Source: Altererythrobacter sp. C41 (GTDB lineage Bacteria > Pseudomonadota > Alphaproteobacteria > Sphingomonadales > Sphingomonadaceae). Taken from it: a stretch of 64,000 nucleotides of DNA. Location of the stretch: contig NZ_JAEVFE010000002.1 of NCBI RefSeq assembly GCF_016803135.1, forward strand, positions 1 to 64,000, in the 5' to 3' direction. The translations under genes were made by a program, and so were the position numbers. Positions 21,978 through 43,088 of this stretch are shown here, in pieces. The notes below the pieces were generated by a model. The model saw only the letters and a program-made list of their open reading frames with translations, searched no databases and was not told the origin of the DNA. Numbering within the stretch: position 1 is the first letter of the stretch; each line of letters opens with the position of its first letter.

Positions 21978-22955
21978 CTAGATATCGCCGCCGGTCAGGC
22001 GCTGGCAGATCAGATCGAGCTGATCGAGCGTGCGATAGCGGATCGTCACTGCACCCGACCGCGGATCGGCATCGGTCTTGATCCGCACGCCCAGCCCCAG
22101 AAACTCCTCCAGATGAGTCTGAACCGCGGCAATGTCCGCATCCTTCGCCGGATCGCGCGAACTGCGCGCCTTGCGCCGCGGTTCGCCCGCGGCGGGCTGC
22201 GCGGCCAGCTTTTCGACCTGCCGGACCGAGAGCTTCTGGGAGACCGCACGCTTCGCCAGTTCGACCGCGGCATCGTTTCCTATCAGCGCCCGCGCATGGC
22301 CCATGGACAGCGCGCCCTCGTCGACCAGGTCGAGCACCTCGTCCGGCAGATTGAGCAGGCGCTGCAGATTCGCGACGTGGCTGCGCGACTTGTCGACCAG
22401 TTGCGCGATCTCGCCCTGCGTCATGCCCTGCCGGTCCGCCAGCGCCTGATAGGCGCGCGCCTCCTCCACCGGATTGAGATCCTCGCGCTGGATGTTCTCG
22501 ATCAGCGCGAGCGCCATGACCTCGGTTTCGTCGAGCTCGCGCACGATCGCGGGGATCTCGTGCAGCCGCGCCTTCTGCGCAGCGCGCCAGCGCCGCTCGC
22601 CGGCCACGAGCTGATAGCGCCCGCCCGCGAGCGGCCGAACGATCACCGGCTGGATCACGCCGCGCTGGGCGATCGACGCGGCGAGCTCCTCCAGCGCCGC
22701 CTCGTCGAAGCGGCGGCGCGGCTGACCGGGCAGCGGCTCGATCGCCGAGGTCGCGATAGAGGCCAAGCCCGATCGCGGTGAAGAGCTTGATTTTCCAGAG
22801 TTTTCTGCCGATCCACCGGCATCGCTGCGGACCAGCGGCTCTTCACGCTGGGTTTCGCCCAAGAGCGCGCCCAGCCCTCTGCCAAGCTTCCGCTTGCGGT
22901 CGGTCGCGCTGCGAACGGGGGCCGAGGCGGGGGTCGGTTCCGGGGAGTTGCTCAT
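21978..22955 (-). CDS. parB: Chromosome partitioning protein ParB
   Basis: A 325-residue parS-binding CTPase clamp. Visible are the N-terminal ParA-interacting basic patch KRKLGRGLGALLG, the CTP-binding ParB domain (GVIQPVIVRPL, YQLVAGERRWRAAQKA, ALIENIQREDLNPVEEARAY), the helix-turn-helix MTQGEIAQLVDKSRSHVANLQRLLNLP, and a C-terminal dimerisation domain ending LDLICQRLTGGDI. The ATG at 22955 overlaps the parA stop (ATGA). Three matching parS sites lie upstream at 23.8-26.3 kb. Confidence 0.97.
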   Translation of the reverse strand: MSNSPEPTPASAPVRSATDRKRKLGRGLGALLGETQREEPLVRSDAGGSAENSGKSSSSPRSGLASIATSAIEPLPGQPRRRFDEAALEELAASIAQRGVIQPVIVRPLAGGRYQLVAGERRWRAAQKARLHEIPAIVRELDETEVMALALIENIQREDLNPVEEARAYQALADRQGMTQGEIAQLVDKSRSHVANLQRLLNLPDEVLDLVDEGALSMGHARALIGNDAAVELAKRAVSQKLSVRQVEKLAAQPAAGEPRRKARSSRDPAKDADIAAVQTHLEEFLGLGVRIKTDADPRSGAVTIRYRTLDQLDLICQRLTGGDI

Positions 22956-23728
22956 GCGGCTTTCCTCTTCTCGGGAATGCGCCCGATCAGTTCGCGTGCA
23001 AGCGCGATATAGGCCCGGCTGCCGGCGCAGGCGTGGTCGTAGACGAGCGCGGGGAGCCCGTGGCTCGGCGCCTCGGACAGGCGGACGTTGCGCGGGATGA
23101 CCGCTTCGAACACCAGCTTGCCCAGGCAATCGCGCACGTCGTCCGCGACCTGGTCCGTCAGCCGATTGCGGCGATCGAACATGGTCAGGACGATGCCGAT
23201 GATGCCCAGGTCGGGGTTGAAGCGCTGCTGCACCCGCTCGACCGTCTGCAAGAGCTGGCTCAAGCCCTCGAGCGCGAAGAACTCGCACTGAAGCGGAACC
23301 AGCAGGGTATCGGCCGCGCCCAGCGCGTTGAGCGTGAGCAGGCCGAGCGACGGCGGGCAGTCGATGAAGCAGATGTCGTGCGCATGGTGATGCGCGAGCG
23401 CCCGGCGGAGCCGCGCGGTGCGGTCCTCGACCGAGACGAGCTCTACCTCGGCACCGCTGAGATCGACTGTCGCGGGAACGATATCGAGCCCGGGAATGGC
23501 CGTCGGATGGACACATTCGGCGAGCGGTGCCTCGTCGACCAGAATGTCGTAGCTGGAACCCTCGCGGTCGGCACTGGCAATTCCCAGCCCGGTCGAGGCA
23601 TTGCCCTGGGGATCAAGGTCGACCAGCAGCGTCTTCCAGCCGATGGCCGCCATCGCGGTCGCGATGTTGATGGCGGTCGTCGTCTTGCCGACCCCGCCCT
23701 TCTGATTCGCGATGGCGATCGTGATCAT
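22952..23728 (-). CDS. parA: Chromosome partitioning ATPase ParA
   Basis: A 258-residue Walker-type partition ATPase. The deviant Walker A KGGVGKTTTAIN lies at residues 10-21, with LLVDLDPQGNASTGLG and the Walker B CFIDCPPSLGLLT. ParA-ATP binds nucleoid DNA and moves ParB-parS complexes. It overlaps rsmG and parB by four bases each, so mnmG-rsmG-parA-parB form one translationally coupled operon on the minus strand, which here is the leading strand for a fork leaving the proposed oriC. Confidence 0.97.
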   Translation of the reverse strand: MITIAIANQKGGVGKTTTAINIATAMAAIGWKTLLVDLDPQGNASTGLGIASADREGSSYDILVDEAPLAECVHPTAIPGLDIVPATVDLSGAEVELVSVEDRTARLRRALAHHHAHDICFIDCPPSLGLLTLNALGAADTLLVPLQCEFFALEGLSQLLQTVERVQQRFNPDLGIIGIVLTMFDRRNRLTDQVADDVRDCLGKLVFEAVIPRNVRLSEAPSHGLPALVYDHACAGSRAYIALARELIGRIPEKRKAA

Positions 23729-24354
23729 GCTTTTGTTCTCCCGGCCAGCTTACCGACGATAATGCCCGATGCGGGGTCCGTGCGTGATTGTTCCACGTGA
23801 AACAACGCGCGCTGCCGCTTTGGCAGCTCCTGCAATTCTTGCGCTGCCGAACGGCCCTTGGGCAACAGCCACAGGGTTTCGCTTGTGGAAAATCGTGCGG
23901 ATAGCGCGAGGATACGTTCGAGCGGCGCGAAGGCTCGCGCCGAGATCACGCTCACCGGGGCACTGTCGACATTCTCAAGTCGTGCGCCCTCGATCCGACA
24001 GTGTTCGAGCCCAAGCTCGTCTCGCATGCGCTCCAGCCACTCGATCCGCTTCCTACGCGATTCCACGAGAACGACGGGCCATTCGGGCCGCATCGCAGCG
24101 ACGACCAGACCGGGCAGCCCTGCCCCCGAACCCAAGTCCAGCCAAGGTCCTGTTTCACGTGGAACATATTCGAGAAGCTGCGCCGAATCTGCGATATGCC
24201 GCTGCCACACTGACGGCAGCGTTGCGCGTGCCACGAGATTCTGCCGTTCGTTCTCGTCGACGAGTGCGCAGATCAGTCGGTCGAGCCGATCCATGGCTAC
24301 CGCATCGCACAGACCGGCCACATACGCGCGCGCCTGATCTTCGGTCGCGATCAC
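23725..24354 (-). CDS. rsmG: 16S rRNA (guanine527-N7)-methyltransferase RsmG
   Basis: A 209-residue SAM-dependent methyltransferase of 16S rRNA. Motifs: [28 protein letters not shown] (SAM-binding), [17 protein letters not shown] and [17 protein letters not shown] at 24354 overlaps the mnmG stop (GTGA). Two parS sites are inside the coding sequence: the C-terminal one is read as FHVEQ and the central one as VPRETG, so the partition sites are accommodated in different reading phases. Confidence 0.95.
23789..23804 (+). promoter_or_regulatory. parS partition site 1 (within rsmG)
   Basis: TGTTCCACGTGAAACA, an exact match to the known bacterial ParB-binding consensus TGTTNCACGTGAAACA. It is inside the 3' part of rsmG, just before parA. 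Confidence 0.95.
24151..24166 (+). promoter_or_regulatory. parS partition site 2 (within rsmG)
   Basis: TGTTTCACGTGGAACA, the reverse complement of site 1 and again a consensus parS. It is inside rsmG in a different reading phase from site 1, 347 bases away. Confidence 0.95.
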
Positions 24355-26294: not shown

Positions 26295-26310
26295 TGTTCC
26301 ACGTGAAACA
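26295..26310 (+). promoter_or_regulatory. parS partition site 3 (between mnmE and mnmG)
   Basis: TGTTCCACGTGAAACA, identical to site 1, in the 97-base gap upstream of mnmG and directly abutting the mnmE stop codon at 26311. Confidence 0.95.
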
Positions 26311-28098: not shown

Positions 28099-28797
28099 AT
28101 GAGCGAGACGGCGACCATCGAGACACTGTCGGCCGACCGGACCTTCGGCGCCTACGTCGCTCGGCCGGAGGGAACCCCGCGCGGGGCGATCGTCGTGATC
28201 CAGGAAATCTTCGGCGTGAACCCCGGCATCCGCCGCAAGTGCGACCGCCTGGCCAAGGACGGCTATCTCGCGGTCGCGCCAGACCTGTTCTGGCGGCTCG
28301 AACCGGACGTCGAGCTCGATCCCGACGTGGAGGCCGAATTCCAGCGTGCGCTCGGCCTGATGGGCAAGTTCGACCAGGACCAGGGCATCCGCGACATCGA
28401 GGCGACGATCCACTGGATCCGCCGCAGCGAAGGCGTCGCGAAAGTCGGCGCGGTCGGTTACTGCCTCGGCGGCCGGCTCGCCTACATGACCGCGGCGCGC
28501 ACCGACGTGGATGCCTCGGTCGGCTACTACGCGGTCGGGATCGACAATCTGCTGCGCGAGAAGCACGCCATCGCCAACCCCCTCATGCTGCACATTGCCG
28601 GCGACGACGGGTTCGTCGACGAGGCCACGCAGCGGGCGATGCACGAGGGGCTGGACGACCATCCCAAGGTCACGCTCCACGACTATCCCGGCCTCGACCA
28701 CGGCTTCGCCACCGAATTCGGCAAGCGCCGCGACGAGCAGGGGGCAGCGCTTGCCGACGAGCGCACCGCGGAGTTCTTCGCCCGGCACCTCGGCTGA
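28099..28797 (+). CDS. Dienelactone hydrolase family protein
   Basis: A 232-residue alpha/beta hydrolase. The family signature is VVIQEIFGVNPGIRRKCDRLAKDGYLAVAPDLFWR; the nucleophile is cysteine in VGYCLGGRLAY (about residue 121), with aspartate in IAGDDGFV and histidine in GLDHGFA completing the triad. Members hydrolyse dienelactone in aromatic degradation, but many have other ester substrates; none is indicated here. ATG at 28099 with GGAAGG upstream. Confidence 0.9.
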   Translation: MSETATIETLSADRTFGAYVARPEGTPRGAIVVIQEIFGVNPGIRRKCDRLAKDGYLAVAPDLFWRLEPDVELDPDVEAEFQRALGLMGKFDQDQGIRDIEATIHWIRRSEGVAKVGAVGYCLGGRLAYMTAARTDVDASVGYYAVGIDNLLREKHAIANPLMLHIAGDDGFVDEATQRAMHEGLDDHPKVTLHDYPGLDHGFATEFGKRRDEQGAALADERTAEFFARHLG

Positions 28798-28810
28798 AAG
28801 GCGGCAGGCG

Positions 28811-30427
28811 ATGATCAACCGCGCGTCCTGGCGCTTCTCCGGGCATGTCGCCTCGCGCTTCGTCGTCCCGGCGCTGCTGATCGTCCTGACGGCGCTGTTC
28901 GCCTGGTGGGAGCCGCTGCGCTGGGGCCTCGTGCTCACCGTGCCCCTGCTGGCGATCGCCGTGTGGGACTTCTTCCAGAAGAAGCACACCCTGCGGCGCA
29001 ACTACCCGCTGCTGGCGCGGGTGCGGTGGATCATGGAGGATCTGCGCCCCTACGCCCGCGCCTACGTGATCGAGGGCGATCTCGAAGGCCGCCCGTTCAA
29101 CCATGACGAGCGCGCGCTGGTCTACGCCCGCTCGAAAGGCGAGCTCGACTCGCATCCCTTCGGCACCGAGCTCGACGTCTATTCGGACGAATACGAGTGG
29201 CTCGCCCATTCGATCGTGCCCAACGAGGCGGCGGCTTCGGACTGGCGGGTCGACGTCGGCGGGCCGCAGTGCGCGCGGCCCTACTCCGCCTCGCTGCTCA
29301 ACATCTCGGCGATGAGCTTCGGGTCGCTCTCGGCCAACGCGATCCTCGCGCTCAACAAGGGCGCGGCGGCCGGGGGATTCTACCACGACACCGGCGAAGG
29401 CGGCATCTCGCGCTATCACCGCGAGCACGGCGGGGACCTCGTGTGGGAGATCGGCAGCGGCTATTTCGGCTGCCGCGACGGCGAGGGACGGTTCGATCCC
29501 GCGCGCTTTGCCGATGCGGCGCAGGACGATCAGGTCAAGATGATCGAGATCAAGCTCAGCCAGGGCGCAAAGCCGGGCCACGGCGGCGTCCTGCCCGCCG
29601 CGAAAGTGAGCGAGGAGATCGCCGCCGCACGCGGAATCCTGCCGCACAAGGACTGCATCTCCCCCGCCGCCCATTCGACCTTCTCGACCCCGGTCGGCCT
29701 GCTCGAATGGGCGGCGCAACTGCGCGACCTCTCGGGAGGAAAACCGATCGGGATCAAGCTCTGCGTCGGCAAGCCGCACGAGGTCTTCGCGGTGATGAAG
29801 GCCATGCGCGAGACGGGCATCCGGCTCGACTATATCGTGGTCGACGGCGCAGAGGGCGGCACCGGCGCGGCGCCGGTCGAGATGTCGAACCGGATCGGCA
29901 TGCCCCTGCGCGAAGGCCTGATCCTGCTGCGCAACGCGCTGGTCGGCTGCGAGCTGAGGGACGACATCCGCCTCTCGGCCGCCGGCAAGGTCCATTCGGG
30001 CGCCGGCATGGCGATGAAATTCGCGCTCGGCGCCGACTGGTGCAACGCCGGACGCGCCTTCATGTTCGCGCTCGGCTGCGTCCAGTCGATGCGCTGCCAC
30101 GACGACACCTGCCCCACCGGCGTCGCCACGCAGGATGCGACGCGCCAGCGCGGGCTGGTGGTGATGGACAAGTCCGAGCGGGTCGCGCGCTTCCACCGCC
30201 ATACGCTCCATGCCCTGCGCGAGATGGTCGTTGCCATGGGGCTGGAGAATCCGTGGCAGATCGAACCGTGCGACTTGTCCGAACGGCAGAACAGCGCCCG
30301 CTCCGACGCGATCGACCACATCTACAACTTCCTCGAACCCGGGGAGCTGCTGGCGGAACCCGAAGGCACGCAATATGCGCGCGACTGGCGTCTCGCCCGC
30401 GCGGACAGCTTCGTGAAGGCGCTATGA
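28811..30427 (+). CDS. FMN-binding glutamate-synthase-family protein with membrane anchor
   Basis: A 538-residue protein consisting of one or two N-terminal membrane segments (VPALLIVLTALFAWWEPL, VLTVPLLAIAVW; residues about 18-55) and a glutamate-synthase central/FMN domain: LNISAMSFGSLSANAILALN, YHDTGEGGISRYH, KPGHGGVLPAAKV, YIVVDGAEGGTGAAPVEM. The 3Fe-4S cysteines C-x5-C-x4-C appear as CVQSMRCHDDTCPTGVATQ. The amidotransferase domain and the NADPH subunit are absent, so this is not a complete GOGAT; the membrane anchor and stand-alone FMN/Fe-S unit suggest another redox role. Start at 28811; it overlaps the NTF2-like gene by four bases. Confidence 0.85.
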   Translation: MINRASWRFSGHVASRFVVPALLIVLTALFAWWEPLRWGLVLTVPLLAIAVWDFFQKKHTLRRNYPLLARVRWIMEDLRPYARAYVIEGDLEGRPFNHDERALVYARSKGELDSHPFGTELDVYSDEYEWLAHSIVPNEAAASDWRVDVGGPQCARPYSASLLNISAMSFGSLSANAILALNKGAAAGGFYHDTGEGGISRYHREHGGDLVWEIGSGYFGCRDGEGRFDPARFADAAQDDQVKMIEIKLSQGAKPGHGGVLPAAKVSEEIAAARGILPHKDCISPAAHSTFSTPVGLLEWAAQLRDLSGGKPIGIKLCVGKPHEVFAVMKAMRETGIRLDYIVVDGAEGGTGAAPVEMSNRIGMPLREGLILLRNALVGCELRDDIRLSAAGKVHSGAGMAMKFALGADWCNAGRAFMFALGCVQSMRCHDDTCPTGVATQDATRQRGLVVMDKSERVARFHRHTLHALREMVVAMGLENPWQIEPCDLSERQNSARSDAIDHIYNFLEPGELLAEPEGTQYARDWRLARADSFVKAL

Positions 30428-32132: not shown

Positions 32133-33398
<1,266 letters not shown>

Positions 33399-33601
33399 CG
33401 TGTGTTCCGTGGTGGGAATGGCCGGCAGGTCGTATGGGTCCTTCGCCTTCAATGGAGATCGGGGCTCAGGACATGCTTGGAGAAAGCGGACCCGGCACCG
33501 CTTGACCGCGGGGCCTCAGCCGGAAGAGAGGTTCGAAATAATCCTGCGCCGCCGCGCCGTCAATTCGCTTTGCGCAGATTCGCCGCCGGCCGGTCCGGCA
33601 A

Positions 33602-34045: not shown

Positions 34046-34208
34046 ATGGGCGATGTAAGATCAGAGCTTGAACCTGGCAACGGCCCGAATCGCCGAAGGA
34101 GAGAAGCGCAAGCATAGCTTGCTCCCTCACCCTCTCTCCCGTTCTCTCCGTCAGGGTGACGAGTGTTCGGGCTGCGGGGACGGTGCAGCAAATATCGGGG
34201 GGTGCGCG

Positions 34209-35234
34209 TCACCTCCTCCATGCGCGAACGGTTTCGATCAGCGTCTCGACGTGGGCGATCGGCGTGTGCTGGCCGATCCCGTGACCAAGATTGAACACAT
34301 GCGGGCGGTCCGCAAAGGCCTCGAGAATCGCCCGCGCGCCACTCGCCAACCGCTCCCCGCCCGCGAGCAGCAGCAGGGGGTCGAGATTGCCCTGGACCGG
34401 CACGCCAGCCGGCAGTTCGCGCGCAACCCAGGCGGGATCGAGCGTCTCGTCCGCCCCGACCGCGGCGATGCCGGTTTCCCGCGCATAGGCCGGCAGCTTC
34501 TCGCCCGATCCCTTGGGAAAGCCGATCACCGGCAAGCCGGGAAACCGCTCGGCCATGGCAGCGGTGATGGCAGCATTGGGGGCGATCACCCAGCGCTCGA
34601 ATTCGCGCGGCGCGAGGCTGCCGGCCCAGCTGTCGAAAAGCTGCACCGCCTCCGCCCCGGCTTCGATCTGTCCGGCGAGATATTCGACGGTGACCGCGGC
34701 GATCGCGTCGATCAGCGCCTGGAACGCCGCCGGATCGCGGTAAGCCATCTCGCGCGCCGCATGCTGGTCGCGGCTGCCCTCGCCCGCCACCATGTAGGTC
34801 GCGACGGTCCACGGGCTGCCGGCGAAACCGAGCAGCGTCGTCTCGGGCGAAAGCCGCGCGCGGACCTGCCGCACCGTCTGGTAGATCGGCGCGAGGCGGC
34901 CCGGAACGGCCTCCAGGCTCGCCAGCGCGCTATCGACCAGCGGCGGCGAGAGCTTCGGCCCCTCGCCTGCCAGGAATGCGAGATCCTGCCCCATCGCATA
35001 GGGCACGATAAGGATATCGGAGAACAGGATCGCGCCATCGAAGCCGAACCGGTCGATCGGCTGCATGGTGATCTCGGCCGCGGCCTCGCTGTCATAAACC
35101 AGCTCGAGGAAACCGCCCTTCTCCGCCCGCAGCGCGCGGTATTCGGGCAGGTAGCGGCCCGCCTGACGCATGAGCCAAAGCGGCACGCGCTCGCCGCGTT
35201 TTCCGCGCAGGGTGTCGAGAAGAAGACCGGGCAT
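34209..35234 (-). CDS. hemE: Uroporphyrinogen decarboxylase
   Basis: A 341-residue enzyme decarboxylating uroporphyrinogen III to coproporphyrinogen III. Signatures: PLWLMRQAGRYLPEYR near the start, ILFSDILIVPYAMG, GFAGSPWTVATYM, VQLFDSWAG and FNLGHGIGQHTP. ATG at 35234 is the first codon giving the family N-terminus; the longer frame would cross the origin-like gap. It is transcribed away from the proposed oriC, the same gene/origin relation known for Caulobacter. Confidence 0.96.
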   Translation of the reverse strand: MPGLLLDTLRGKRGERVPLWLMRQAGRYLPEYRALRAEKGGFLELVYDSEAAAEITMQPIDRFGFDGAILFSDILIVPYAMGQDLAFLAGEGPKLSPPLVDSALASLEAVPGRLAPIYQTVRQVRARLSPETTLLGFAGSPWTVATYMVAGEGSRDQHAAREMAYRDPAAFQALIDAIAAVTVEYLAGQIEAGAEAVQLFDSWAGSLAPREFERWVIAPNAAITAAMAERFPGLPVIGFPKGSGEKLPAYARETGIAAVGADETLDPAWVARELPAGVPVQGNLDPLLLLAGGERLASGARAILEAFADRPHVFNLGHGIGQHTPIAHVETLIETVRAWRR

Positions 35235-35555
35235 TCGGGAAGGTCCAATCCAAATAATAAAGTATTTAAATAGGATGCTGGAGTCTGTTGGCCCTGTGGA
35301 TATCGGGGACAGGCGCGCCCTGCCCGATTTCTCCCGGATTGAACAGGCCCAGAGGGTTCGCGACTCATCGGTCTGCCGCGTCAACCGATGCTTTTCCCCA
35401 CTGTCCCCAGCCTGTCGAAAAGCCGCGCGCCATGTCCACAAGCGCGGGTGCGGAATGGCTGACAGCGGGAATGAAAACGGCCCCCGAACTTGTCGCCAGC
35501 TTTCTCCCGTGGTTTATGCCGGGCATTCTCCACAGCCGATCGCACACCCTTACGG
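35235..35555. other. Probable replication origin (oriC) between hemE and the PPDK regulator
   Basis: A 321-base gap between divergent genes. An AT-rich patch (35247-35273, CAAATAATAAAGTATTTAAA) lies at the hemE side. Sequences resembling the DnaA box TTATCCACA: ATATCCACA read on the minus strand at 35295-35303 and TTCTCCACA at 35526-35534 (one mismatch each), ATGTCCACA at 35432-35440 and TTTTCCCCA at 35392-35400 (two mismatches each). The neighbourhood hemE/rho on one side and maf-aroE-coaE-dnaQ on the other, plus the switch of gene orientation and nearby parS, strongly fit an alphaproteobacterial origin. The AT patch could also serve as hemE promoter. Confidence 0.7.
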
Positions 35556-36401
35556 ATGAGCCGCCTCCACCTCCATCTCGTGTCGGATTCCACCGGTGAA
35601 ACGCTGGAAATGGTGGCCAAGGCCGCGCTTGCCCAGTTCGACGCGGCGGAGATCGTGCGCCATTTCTGGCCGATGGTCCGCTCGCGCCAGCATCTCTCGC
35701 GCATTCTGCCCGATCTCGCCGACAATCCGGGGCTCGTGCTGTTCACGCTGGTCAATCCCGAGACGCGCGCGACGCTGGAGGAGCATTGCCGCCAGCTCGG
35801 CCTGCCGGCGGTGCCCGCGCTCGACGCGGTGACCGAAGCGCTCGAGGCGCAGCTCGGGCAGGAGGCGCACGGGCGGCCGGGCCGGCAGCATGCGATGGAC
35901 GAGGCCTATTTCCGCCGGGTCGACGCGATCCACTTCACGATCGCGCACGACGACGGGCTCGGGTGGGAGGACTGGGAGGAAGCCGACATCGTGCTCGCCG
36001 GAGTCTCGCGCTCGTCGAAGACACCGACCAGCATCTATCTCGCCAACCGCGGATACAAGGTCGCCAACATCCCGCTGGTCATCGAAAGTCCGCCCCCGGC
36101 CGCCTTGTTCGAGTTGCGCCACCCGCTGGTCGTCGGCCTGACCACAGCGCCCGAGCGGCTGGTGCAGATCCGCCGCAACCGCCTGCTCACGCTCAACGAG
36201 ACGGCCGAGACCTCCTATGTCGATGCCGAGCGGGTGCGCAGCGAAGTCCAGTTCGCCCGCCGCATGTTCGCCGACAACGGCTGGCCGGTGATCGACGTCA
36301 CGCGCCGCTCGATCGAGGAGACCGCGGCGGCGATCATCCGCCTGCTGGGCGAACGGCCGAGCGATGGCGACGACATGCTCACCGGATCGAAGCCCATATG
36401 A
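35556..36401 (+). CDS. Pyruvate, phosphate dikinase regulatory protein (DUF299 family)
   Basis: A 281-residue bifunctional kinase/pyrophosphorylase type protein. [28 protein letters not shown] is the family N-terminus and [26 protein letters not shown] contains the nucleotide-binding loop. Members phosphorylate and dephosphorylate a threonine of PPDK or PEP synthase, controlling the pyruvate-PEP step. ATG at 35556 is chosen by this N-terminus. It starts the rightward operon with maf, aroE, coaE by ATGA overlaps. Confidence 0.92.
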
Positions 36402-42199: not shown

Positions 42200-42973
42200 C
42201 TAGTCGGCGATGTCGACCCATACCGGGGTGTGGTCGCTGGCCTTCTCGCGGCCCCGGTATTCCTTGTCGACCCCCGCGGCGACCATGCGGTCGGCGAGTT
42301 CGGGGCTGAGCAGCAGGTGATCGATGCGAAAGCCGTGGTCGCGCTGCCAGGCGCCCGCCTGATAGTCCCAGAAAGTCCAGACCCCGCCGCGCGGGTTCAG
42401 CGTGTCCAGCGCGTCGGTCCACCCGGCCGCGAGCAGCCGGCGGTAGGCGGCGCGCGATTCGGGCTGCATCAGAGCGTCGTTCGCCATCGCGGCGGGCGAC
42501 CAGACATCCTTGTCCTCGGGGATGACGTTGAAGTCGCCCACGACTGCGCAGGGGATCTCCAGCGCCCATAGCTCGGCCATGCGCGCGCGCAGCCGCTCCA
42601 TCCAGGCGAGCTTGTAATCGAACTTGGGCCCCGGCTGCGGATTGCCGTTGGGCAGGTAGATGCAGGCGATCCGAACGCCGTTCACGTCGGCTTCGATGTA
42701 GCGGGCGTGCAGATCGTCCGGATCGCCGGGCAGCGTGCGCTGCGCTTCGATCGGCTGCACCCCGTCGGCGAGGATGGCGACGCCATTGAAACCCTTCTGG
42801 CCATGCCAGATCGCTTTGTAGCCGATCTTCTCGAACGCGTCGGCGGGGAAGCCCTCGTCCTGGCTCTTGATCTCCTGCAGGCAGGCCACGGTGGGGCGGG
42901 TTTCCTCGAGCCATTCGATCAGCCGCGGCAGGCGCGCCTTGATGCCGTTGATATTGAAGCTGGCGATTCTCAG
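42200..42973 (-). CDS. xth: Exodeoxyribonuclease III
   Basis: A 257-residue AP endonuclease/exonuclease of the EEP fold: RIASFNINGIKARLPRLIEWLEE, CLQEIKSQDEGFP, CIYLPNGNPQPG, VVGDFNVIPEDKDVW and SDHTPVWVDI give the catalytic set. The start is uncertain: the usual N-terminus M-RIASFNING corresponds to a CTG codon at 42973, with GGGAGG five bases upstream. A TTG at 42988 in the same frame would add five residues and would place the GGGAGG inside the gene. No ATG is available. I chose the CTG from the ribosome-binding-site spacing and the family alignment. Confidence 0.9.
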   Translation of the reverse strand: MRIASFNINGIKARLPRLIEWLEETRPTVACLQEIKSQDEGFPADAFEKIGYKAIWHGQKGFNGVAILADGVQPIEAQRTLPGDPDDLHARYIEADVNGVRIACIYLPNGNPQPGPKFDYKLAWMERLRARMAELWALEIPCAVVGDFNVIPEDKDVWSPAAMANDALMQPESRAAYRRLLAAGWTDALDTLNPRGGVWTFWDYQAGAWQRDHGFRIDHLLLSPELADRMVAAGVDKEYRGREKASDHTPVWVDIAD

Positions 42974-43088
42974 AGCAACCTCCCGCAAACCGTTGGGGCG
43001 GAGCCTGCCCCGCCCCGCCCTTCAACGCTTCGCTAGAAGAAAATGCCGTGCTTCGAAAGCGCGGCGCGTGCCCGTGCGGGCCGCGGCG

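Follow-up and report, generated by a model that had tools for sequence, protein, structure and literature searches.

The chromosomal origin of Caulobacter has been identified experimentally between hemE and COG1806 and contains five DnaA boxes, one IHF site and five CtrA sites, and the origin of Rickettsia prowazekii has the same flanking genes (PMC1914354). An oriC near hemE has been predicted for most Sphingomonadaceae (PMC4741004) and likewise for Novosphingobium (PMC4059872). The Caulobacter origin is also transcribed, giving rise to the 182-nt RNA CcnA (PMC8959179). In the parts of the literature on origins in sphingomonads and Erythrobacter that were available to us, we found no mapped origin for the genus studied here, PMC4741004 and PMC4059872 being predictions. 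Here, we describe a gap at positions 35235-35555 that is very probably the chromosomal oriC of a member of the Erythrobacteraceae closely related to Pelagerythrobacter; this oriC would be of the hemE-COG1806 type known from Alphaproteobacteria. The computed basis of this reading is the position of the gap, its conservation, the skew in relatives, the enrichment of DnaA boxes and the proximity of parS.

Gene context and conservation of the gap

The stretch of DNA that we analysed (64,000 nucleotides, hereafter the window) is the beginning of contig 2 (C2) of a genome assembly in 30 contigs. By its PSRP protein, the nearest named genomes are Pelagerythrobacter rhizovicinus and P. aerophilus (98-99% identity). 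A first-pass annotation, made from the sequence, had proposed that a 321-base divergent gap beside hemE is the origin. The gap is real and non-coding: it measures 321 bp, fills exactly the space between hemE on the minus strand and PSRP on the plus strand, and has a G+C content of 59%, where 1-kb blocks across the window have 60-73%. The gap and the genes around it are as follows.

32133..33452, minus strand: rho (PF07497/PF00006/PF07498)
34209..35234, minus strand: hemE, uroporphyrinogen decarboxylase (PF01208, URO-D, E=4.1e-111)
35235..35555, unstranded: candidate oriC gap between divergent hemE and PSRP (sequence and gene calls)
35556..36401, plus strand: PSRP, kinase/pyrophosphorylase (Kinase-PPPase, DUF299/COG1806; PF03618, E=1.8e-95)

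To the left of the gap lie UPF0093 (hemJ), rho, mnmE, mnmG, rsmG, parA and parB, and to its right maf, aroE, coaE and a dnaQ-like exonuclease gene. The switch in gene orientation that had been reported at the gap holds for the nearest genes, with hemE, UPF0093/hemJ and rho on the minus strand and PSRP, maf, aroE, coaE and the dnaQ-like gene on the plus strand, but fails farther out, where 28511-30427 on the left is on the plus strand and 42200-42988 on the right is on the minus strand. The hemJ-hemE gap was measured at 58 loci: it is 163 bp long in the window (34046-34208), 229 bp in P. rhizovicinus and 21-64 bp in the remaining 56. With its inverted TTCAGGGT-like arms, the insert of P. rhizovicinus resembles a small repeat element.

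Conservation of the gap among relatives, a check named in the first-pass annotation, came out in favor of the proposal. At the first-round loci (30 of the 40 matches found in 39 of 40 genomes, our own locus counted), hemE and PSRP were divergent in 30 of 30 cases, with a gap of 295-457 bp. A class-level gene-order search covered 144 alphaproteobacterial genomes. Our own was among them but left out of the counts; of the rest, 96 have both genes. In 85 of these 96 the two genes diverge and lie within 6 kb of each other, in 77 cases with 700 bp or less between them, and in the remaining 11 they lie on different contigs (10 genomes) or 577 kb apart (one genome). Among the named loci, the best 80 of 576 relatives found, the gap is present at 79; the contig of the 80th (L115) ends before hemE, and this locus was left out of the footprint. 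In the resulting alignment of 80 gaps, the window included, 91 of 321 columns were conserved at 90% or more; in the rho-hemJ gap, compared over 78 sequences, 14 of 149 columns reached this level. The single-contig record of one relative from the same order (G036) begins ~60 bp before its PSRP match (C1:60), as if base 1 had been set at the origin.

Sequence elements within the gap

The elements that we recognised in the gap are listed here from the hemE side to the PSRP side.

35247..35273, unstranded: AT-rich patch, probable DNA-unwinding element, the AT-richest 27-mer of the gap (85% A+T)
35281..35285, unstranded: GAGTC, a GANTC (CcrM-type) site (sequence)
35295..35303, minus strand: left DnaA box ATATCCACA, one mismatch, within the conserved block CTGTTGGCCCTGTGGA (pattern scan)
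35320..35336, unstranded: conserved block CTGCCCGATTTCTCCCG (footprint of 80 gaps)
35362..35366, unstranded: GACTC, a second GANTC site (conserved GCGA[AC]TC block)
35392-35400 and 35401-35409, plus strand: two tandem TCCCCA-type weak DnaA boxes (sequence; footprint)
35432..35440, plus strand: two-mismatch DnaA box ATGTCCACA (sequence; partly conserved)
35490..35518, plus strand: promoter-like element TTGTCG-N17-TTTATG, containing GTGGTTTAT and directed into PSRP (spacing conservation)
35526..35534, plus strand: right DnaA box TTCTCCACA, one mismatch, at the expected start site of the promoter-like element (pattern scan)

Both the AT-rich patch and the DnaA-box-like sequences, two with one mismatch plus weaker ones, had been noted in the first-pass annotation and were recovered at these positions. 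The AT-richest 27-mer starts in the first 70 bp in all 80 gaps, window included. The TCCACA core of the left box is found in its block context in 76 of 80 gaps. Since the left box lies on the minus strand and the right box on the plus strand, each near an end of the gap, their TCCACA ends point outward. The sequence TTTCTCCCG occurs twice in the gap, at 35328-35336 and 35501-35509, within two conserved blocks.

One-mismatch boxes are enriched in the gap. Our own gap holds two, compared to a mean of 0.05 in shuffled sequence, and none of 300 shuffles reached two. Over 30 gaps, their density was 5.3-6.6 per kb against a background of 0.07-0.09 per kb, an enrichment of at least 55-fold. Of 79 relatives' gaps, 58 contain at least one such box (86 boxes in 26.3 kb) and 21 none, while the rho-hemJ control gaps contained them in 0 of 77 cases (11.6 kb). 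TCCCCA has a density of 6.2 per kb in our own gap and 0.19 per kb in the window (shuffle p 0.047). By contrast, the exact consensus box TTATCCACA is absent from the whole window, and hence from the gap, and an exact E. coli-type box was found in just 2 of 79 relatives' gaps. Because exact boxes are this rare, programs that count E. coli-type boxes could miss or misplace such origins.

Box counts alone are not proof of an origin, since the 3.2 Mb of our own genome contain 150 one-mismatch boxes compared to 148 for a reversed-pattern control, no genome-wide excess, and at least three other close pairs were found among the matches listed (C1:726294/726306, C2:225529/225784 and C1:473728/473740). 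Genome-wide box clusters were accordingly rejected as sole evidence. Within the window, two one-mismatch boxes less than 1 kb apart occur in the hemE/PSRP gap only. At G000 C1:726294-726314, two one-mismatch boxes 12 bp apart and an adjoining TCCACA lie inside a long ORF, a putative HrpB-type helicase (assigned by eye).

GANTC sites number 8.3 per kb in 7 gaps of the genus, 16.3 in 16 of the family and 10.8 in 7 of the order, compared to a background of 1.6-2.0; the two sites in our own gap are not above shuffles. A CcrM-type RAMA domain gene was found in our own genome. One of the genome's six exact DnaA boxes (G000 C1:602924-602932) precedes the gene for the CcrM-type methyltransferase by ~60 bp, counted from its apparent start codon, which was chosen by eye. 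Conserved CtrA-like boxes upstream of hemE, which the first-pass annotation had envisaged, did not materialise: CtrA patterns (TTAA-N7-TTAA or TTAACCAT) were found in 0 of 79 relatives' gaps and are missing from the window's gap. An IHF pattern is likewise missing from the window's gap; in relatives' gaps, a loose pattern matched 16 of 79 and a stricter one 0 of 79.

The promoter-like element is widely shared. CTTGTC was present in 74 of 79 relatives' gaps and GTGGTTTAT in 72 of 79, TTGTCN and TTTATN are spaced by 17 bp in 68 of 80 gaps, and among the 77 gaps having GGTTTAT, 63 carry TCCACA 15-16 bp past TTTAT. The exact sequence CCGTGGTTTATGCC occurs a single time in our own genome. In the same-genus relative G006, GTGGTTTAT was not found in the 0.8 Mb read, and the gap has ATGGTTTAT instead. 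From this pattern of spacing, we infer that TTGTCG-N17-TTTATG may be a promoter whose expected start falls at the right-hand DnaA box.

Conserved blocks within the gap, and the precedent of CcnA at the Caulobacter origin (PMC8959179), are also what one would see if the gap encoded a small RNA, besides or instead of serving as an origin. We regard this as improbable. An Rfam search of the window at gathering thresholds gave no match, and the sole promoter-like element noticed is directed into PSRP. Moreover, when the window was folded together with 15 loci chosen from the 79, each taken as a fixed slice of ~321 bases before PSRP, the consensus had 15 pairs, none with changes on both sides, and a conserved RNA was rejected on this absence of covariation.

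Skew, partition sites and the origin reading

An oriC at the gap predicts a minimum of cumulative GC skew there, as the first-pass annotation had anticipated. This was borne out in same-genus relatives, with a minimum in G006 and a sign flip in G002, and not in our own draft genome. In G006 (a single contig of 2.885 Mb, of which 40 stretches totalling 0.8 Mb were read), the minimum over the contiguous interval 2,240,001-2,460,000 lies at 2,392,199, ~640 bp from the orthologous gap at 2,391,228-2,391,557. The curve is flat over ~25 kb, about 2,385-2,410 kb, and therefore supports the neighbourhood and not the exact base. The opposite switch lies near 0.85 Mb (interpolated). In G002 (same genus, two contigs), the sign changes between the 661-681 and 681-701 kb stretches, with the gap at 679.5 kb: the four stretches from 550 to 681 kb are negative and the four from 681 to 870 kb positive, and over all 20 stretches 6 of 8 to the left of the gap are negative and 12 of 12 to the right positive. 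The interpolated minimum in this genome is at 686 kb raw and 817 kb mean-subtracted, and the maximum at 2.78-2.88 Mb makes its arms unequal. In a third member of the genus, G004, skew is below zero in 11 of the 15 stretches to the left of the gap and above zero in 4 of the 5 to its right.

The switch at the gap was found in all three of these same-genus relatives. In G020, from the same family, the gap is at 507 kb and the interpolated minimum varies with the treatment, at 797 kb mean-subtracted (290 kb off) or 2,712 kb raw. On our own contig, the skew to the left of the gap is -0.015; to the right it is +0.005 as far as the window reaches, and farther out it averages +0.004 (11 of 16 stretches positive). 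The draft-genome curve is noisy, with minima at 123,580 within positions 1-144,000 of C2 and near 48-49 kb within the window; as C2 has its minimum away from the gap, own-genome skew was set aside as an origin pointer.

Partition functions are encoded to the left of the gap, at the following positions.

21978-22949, minus strand: parB (Pfam)
22952-23728, minus strand: parA (Pfam)
23789-23804, 24151-24166 and 26295-26310, unstranded: three parS-like 16-mers, each with one mismatch (100 shuffles gave none)

The three parS-like sites are the only ones genome-wide at two mismatches or fewer. They lie beside parAB, 8.9-11.4 kb left of the gap, in agreement with the earlier statement that the window holds origin and parS in about 12 kb. 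The sole Bac_DnaA match in the genome is at C2:382 kb, ~347 kb from the gap, and dnaA is therefore no origin marker here.

Could the gap be merely a conserved divergent promoter or regulatory region through which DnaA controls hemE and PSRP, with the origin elsewhere? DnaA boxes can act as promoter elements, the promoter-like element keeps its fixed spacing, and the skew minimum of our own genome lies away from the gap. Nevertheless, we consider this very improbable: skew changes sign at the gap in G006, G002 and G004, and gene order is retained in 85 of 96 class genomes. Furthermore, among the three other box pairs listed, one lies inside the long ORF of the putative HrpB-like helicase and a second has one box just beyond the 3' end of a putative ribonucleotide reductase ORF (both by eye). 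Least probable of all is a true origin outside the gap but within ~25 kb of it, such as one closer to parABS or to the right of PSRP. In its favor, the flat G006 curve means that skew alone cannot resolve the gap, and skew within the window is lowest near 48-49 kb. Against it, the hemE/PSRP gap has the window's only pair of one-mismatch boxes less than 1 kb apart, and in Caulobacter the homologous gap has been identified by experiment as the origin (PMC1914354).

Accordingly, we favor the chromosomal origin first proposed, which relatives' skew, gap conservation, box enrichment and parS proximity all support. The locus has features expected of a hemE-COG1806 oriC: an intergenic gap, a cluster of DnaA boxes above background, an AT-rich region and, in same-genus relatives, a skew switch. 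For its working, we infer a scheme in which DnaA would bind the weak boxes, with two outward TCCACA boxes marking the ends of the gap and the TCCCCA-type boxes in between. A DnaA oligomer would then unwind the AT-rich patch next to hemE, and replication forks would depart in both directions. CcrM methylation at GANTC, together with transcription from the promoter-like element at the right-hand box, might tune initiation. The analysis thereby locates the probable origin of a genus with no mapped one in the literature available to us, and the 80-sequence footprint identifies conserved elements as targets for mutation.

Comparison with described origins

The gap is similar to BUS, which comprises DnaA boxes, a spacer and DnaA-trios (PMC8287927), in having a left box, an outward G/C run and the AT-rich patch ~20 bases on. 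Unlike BUS, the gaps have on average no run of three DnaA-trios, the mean longest run being 1.9 compared to 1.6 in shuffled sequence (77 gaps). A BUS/DnaA-trio unwinding system, taken as at least three trios near a box, was rejected on this mean. The position near hemE is shared with the predicted oriC of Sphingopyxis granuli TFA and of Novosphingobium PP1Y (PMC4741004, PMC4059872). For Sphingopyxis, the resemblance extends to conserved gene order, the presence of several DnaA boxes and a putative element for unwinding (PMC4741004). These sphingomonad predictions used Ori-Finder, with an E. coli box template for Sphingopyxis, whereas exact E. coli-type boxes occur in only 2 of 79 relatives' gaps here; the comparison with them covers features other than box sequence.

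Weak boxes and missing CtrA sites are not new in themselves. The near-absence of consensus boxes and the promoter-like element of conserved 17-bp spacing at the right-hand box are possibly clade-specific. A broader idea, possible but doubtful, is that the Erythrobacteraceae have a CtrA-free oriC, nearly devoid of consensus boxes, at which RNA polymerase and DnaA might compete for the right box, and that this competition, with GANTC methylation, would take the place of the CtrA gate found in Caulobacter. In Caulobacter, W-boxes carry TCCCCA and parS is ~10 kb from the origin; the weak TCCCCA-type boxes and the parS distance found here are alike, as is the presence of a CcrM-type gene. Unlike Cori, with its five CtrA sites and one IHF site, the 321-bp gap of the window has no CtrA or IHF pattern, and relatives' gaps have no CtrA pattern (0/79), which led us to reject a Caulobacter-style, CtrA-gated Cori. 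Like the Cori of Caulobacter crescentus, the gap has hemE/COG1806 flanks, an AT-rich patch and weak DnaA boxes (PMC1914354, PMC4468827). Origins beside hemE have already been reported in Caulobacter, in Rickettsia and, by prediction, in most Sphingomonadaceae, and the present gap is very probably a further case of this known type.
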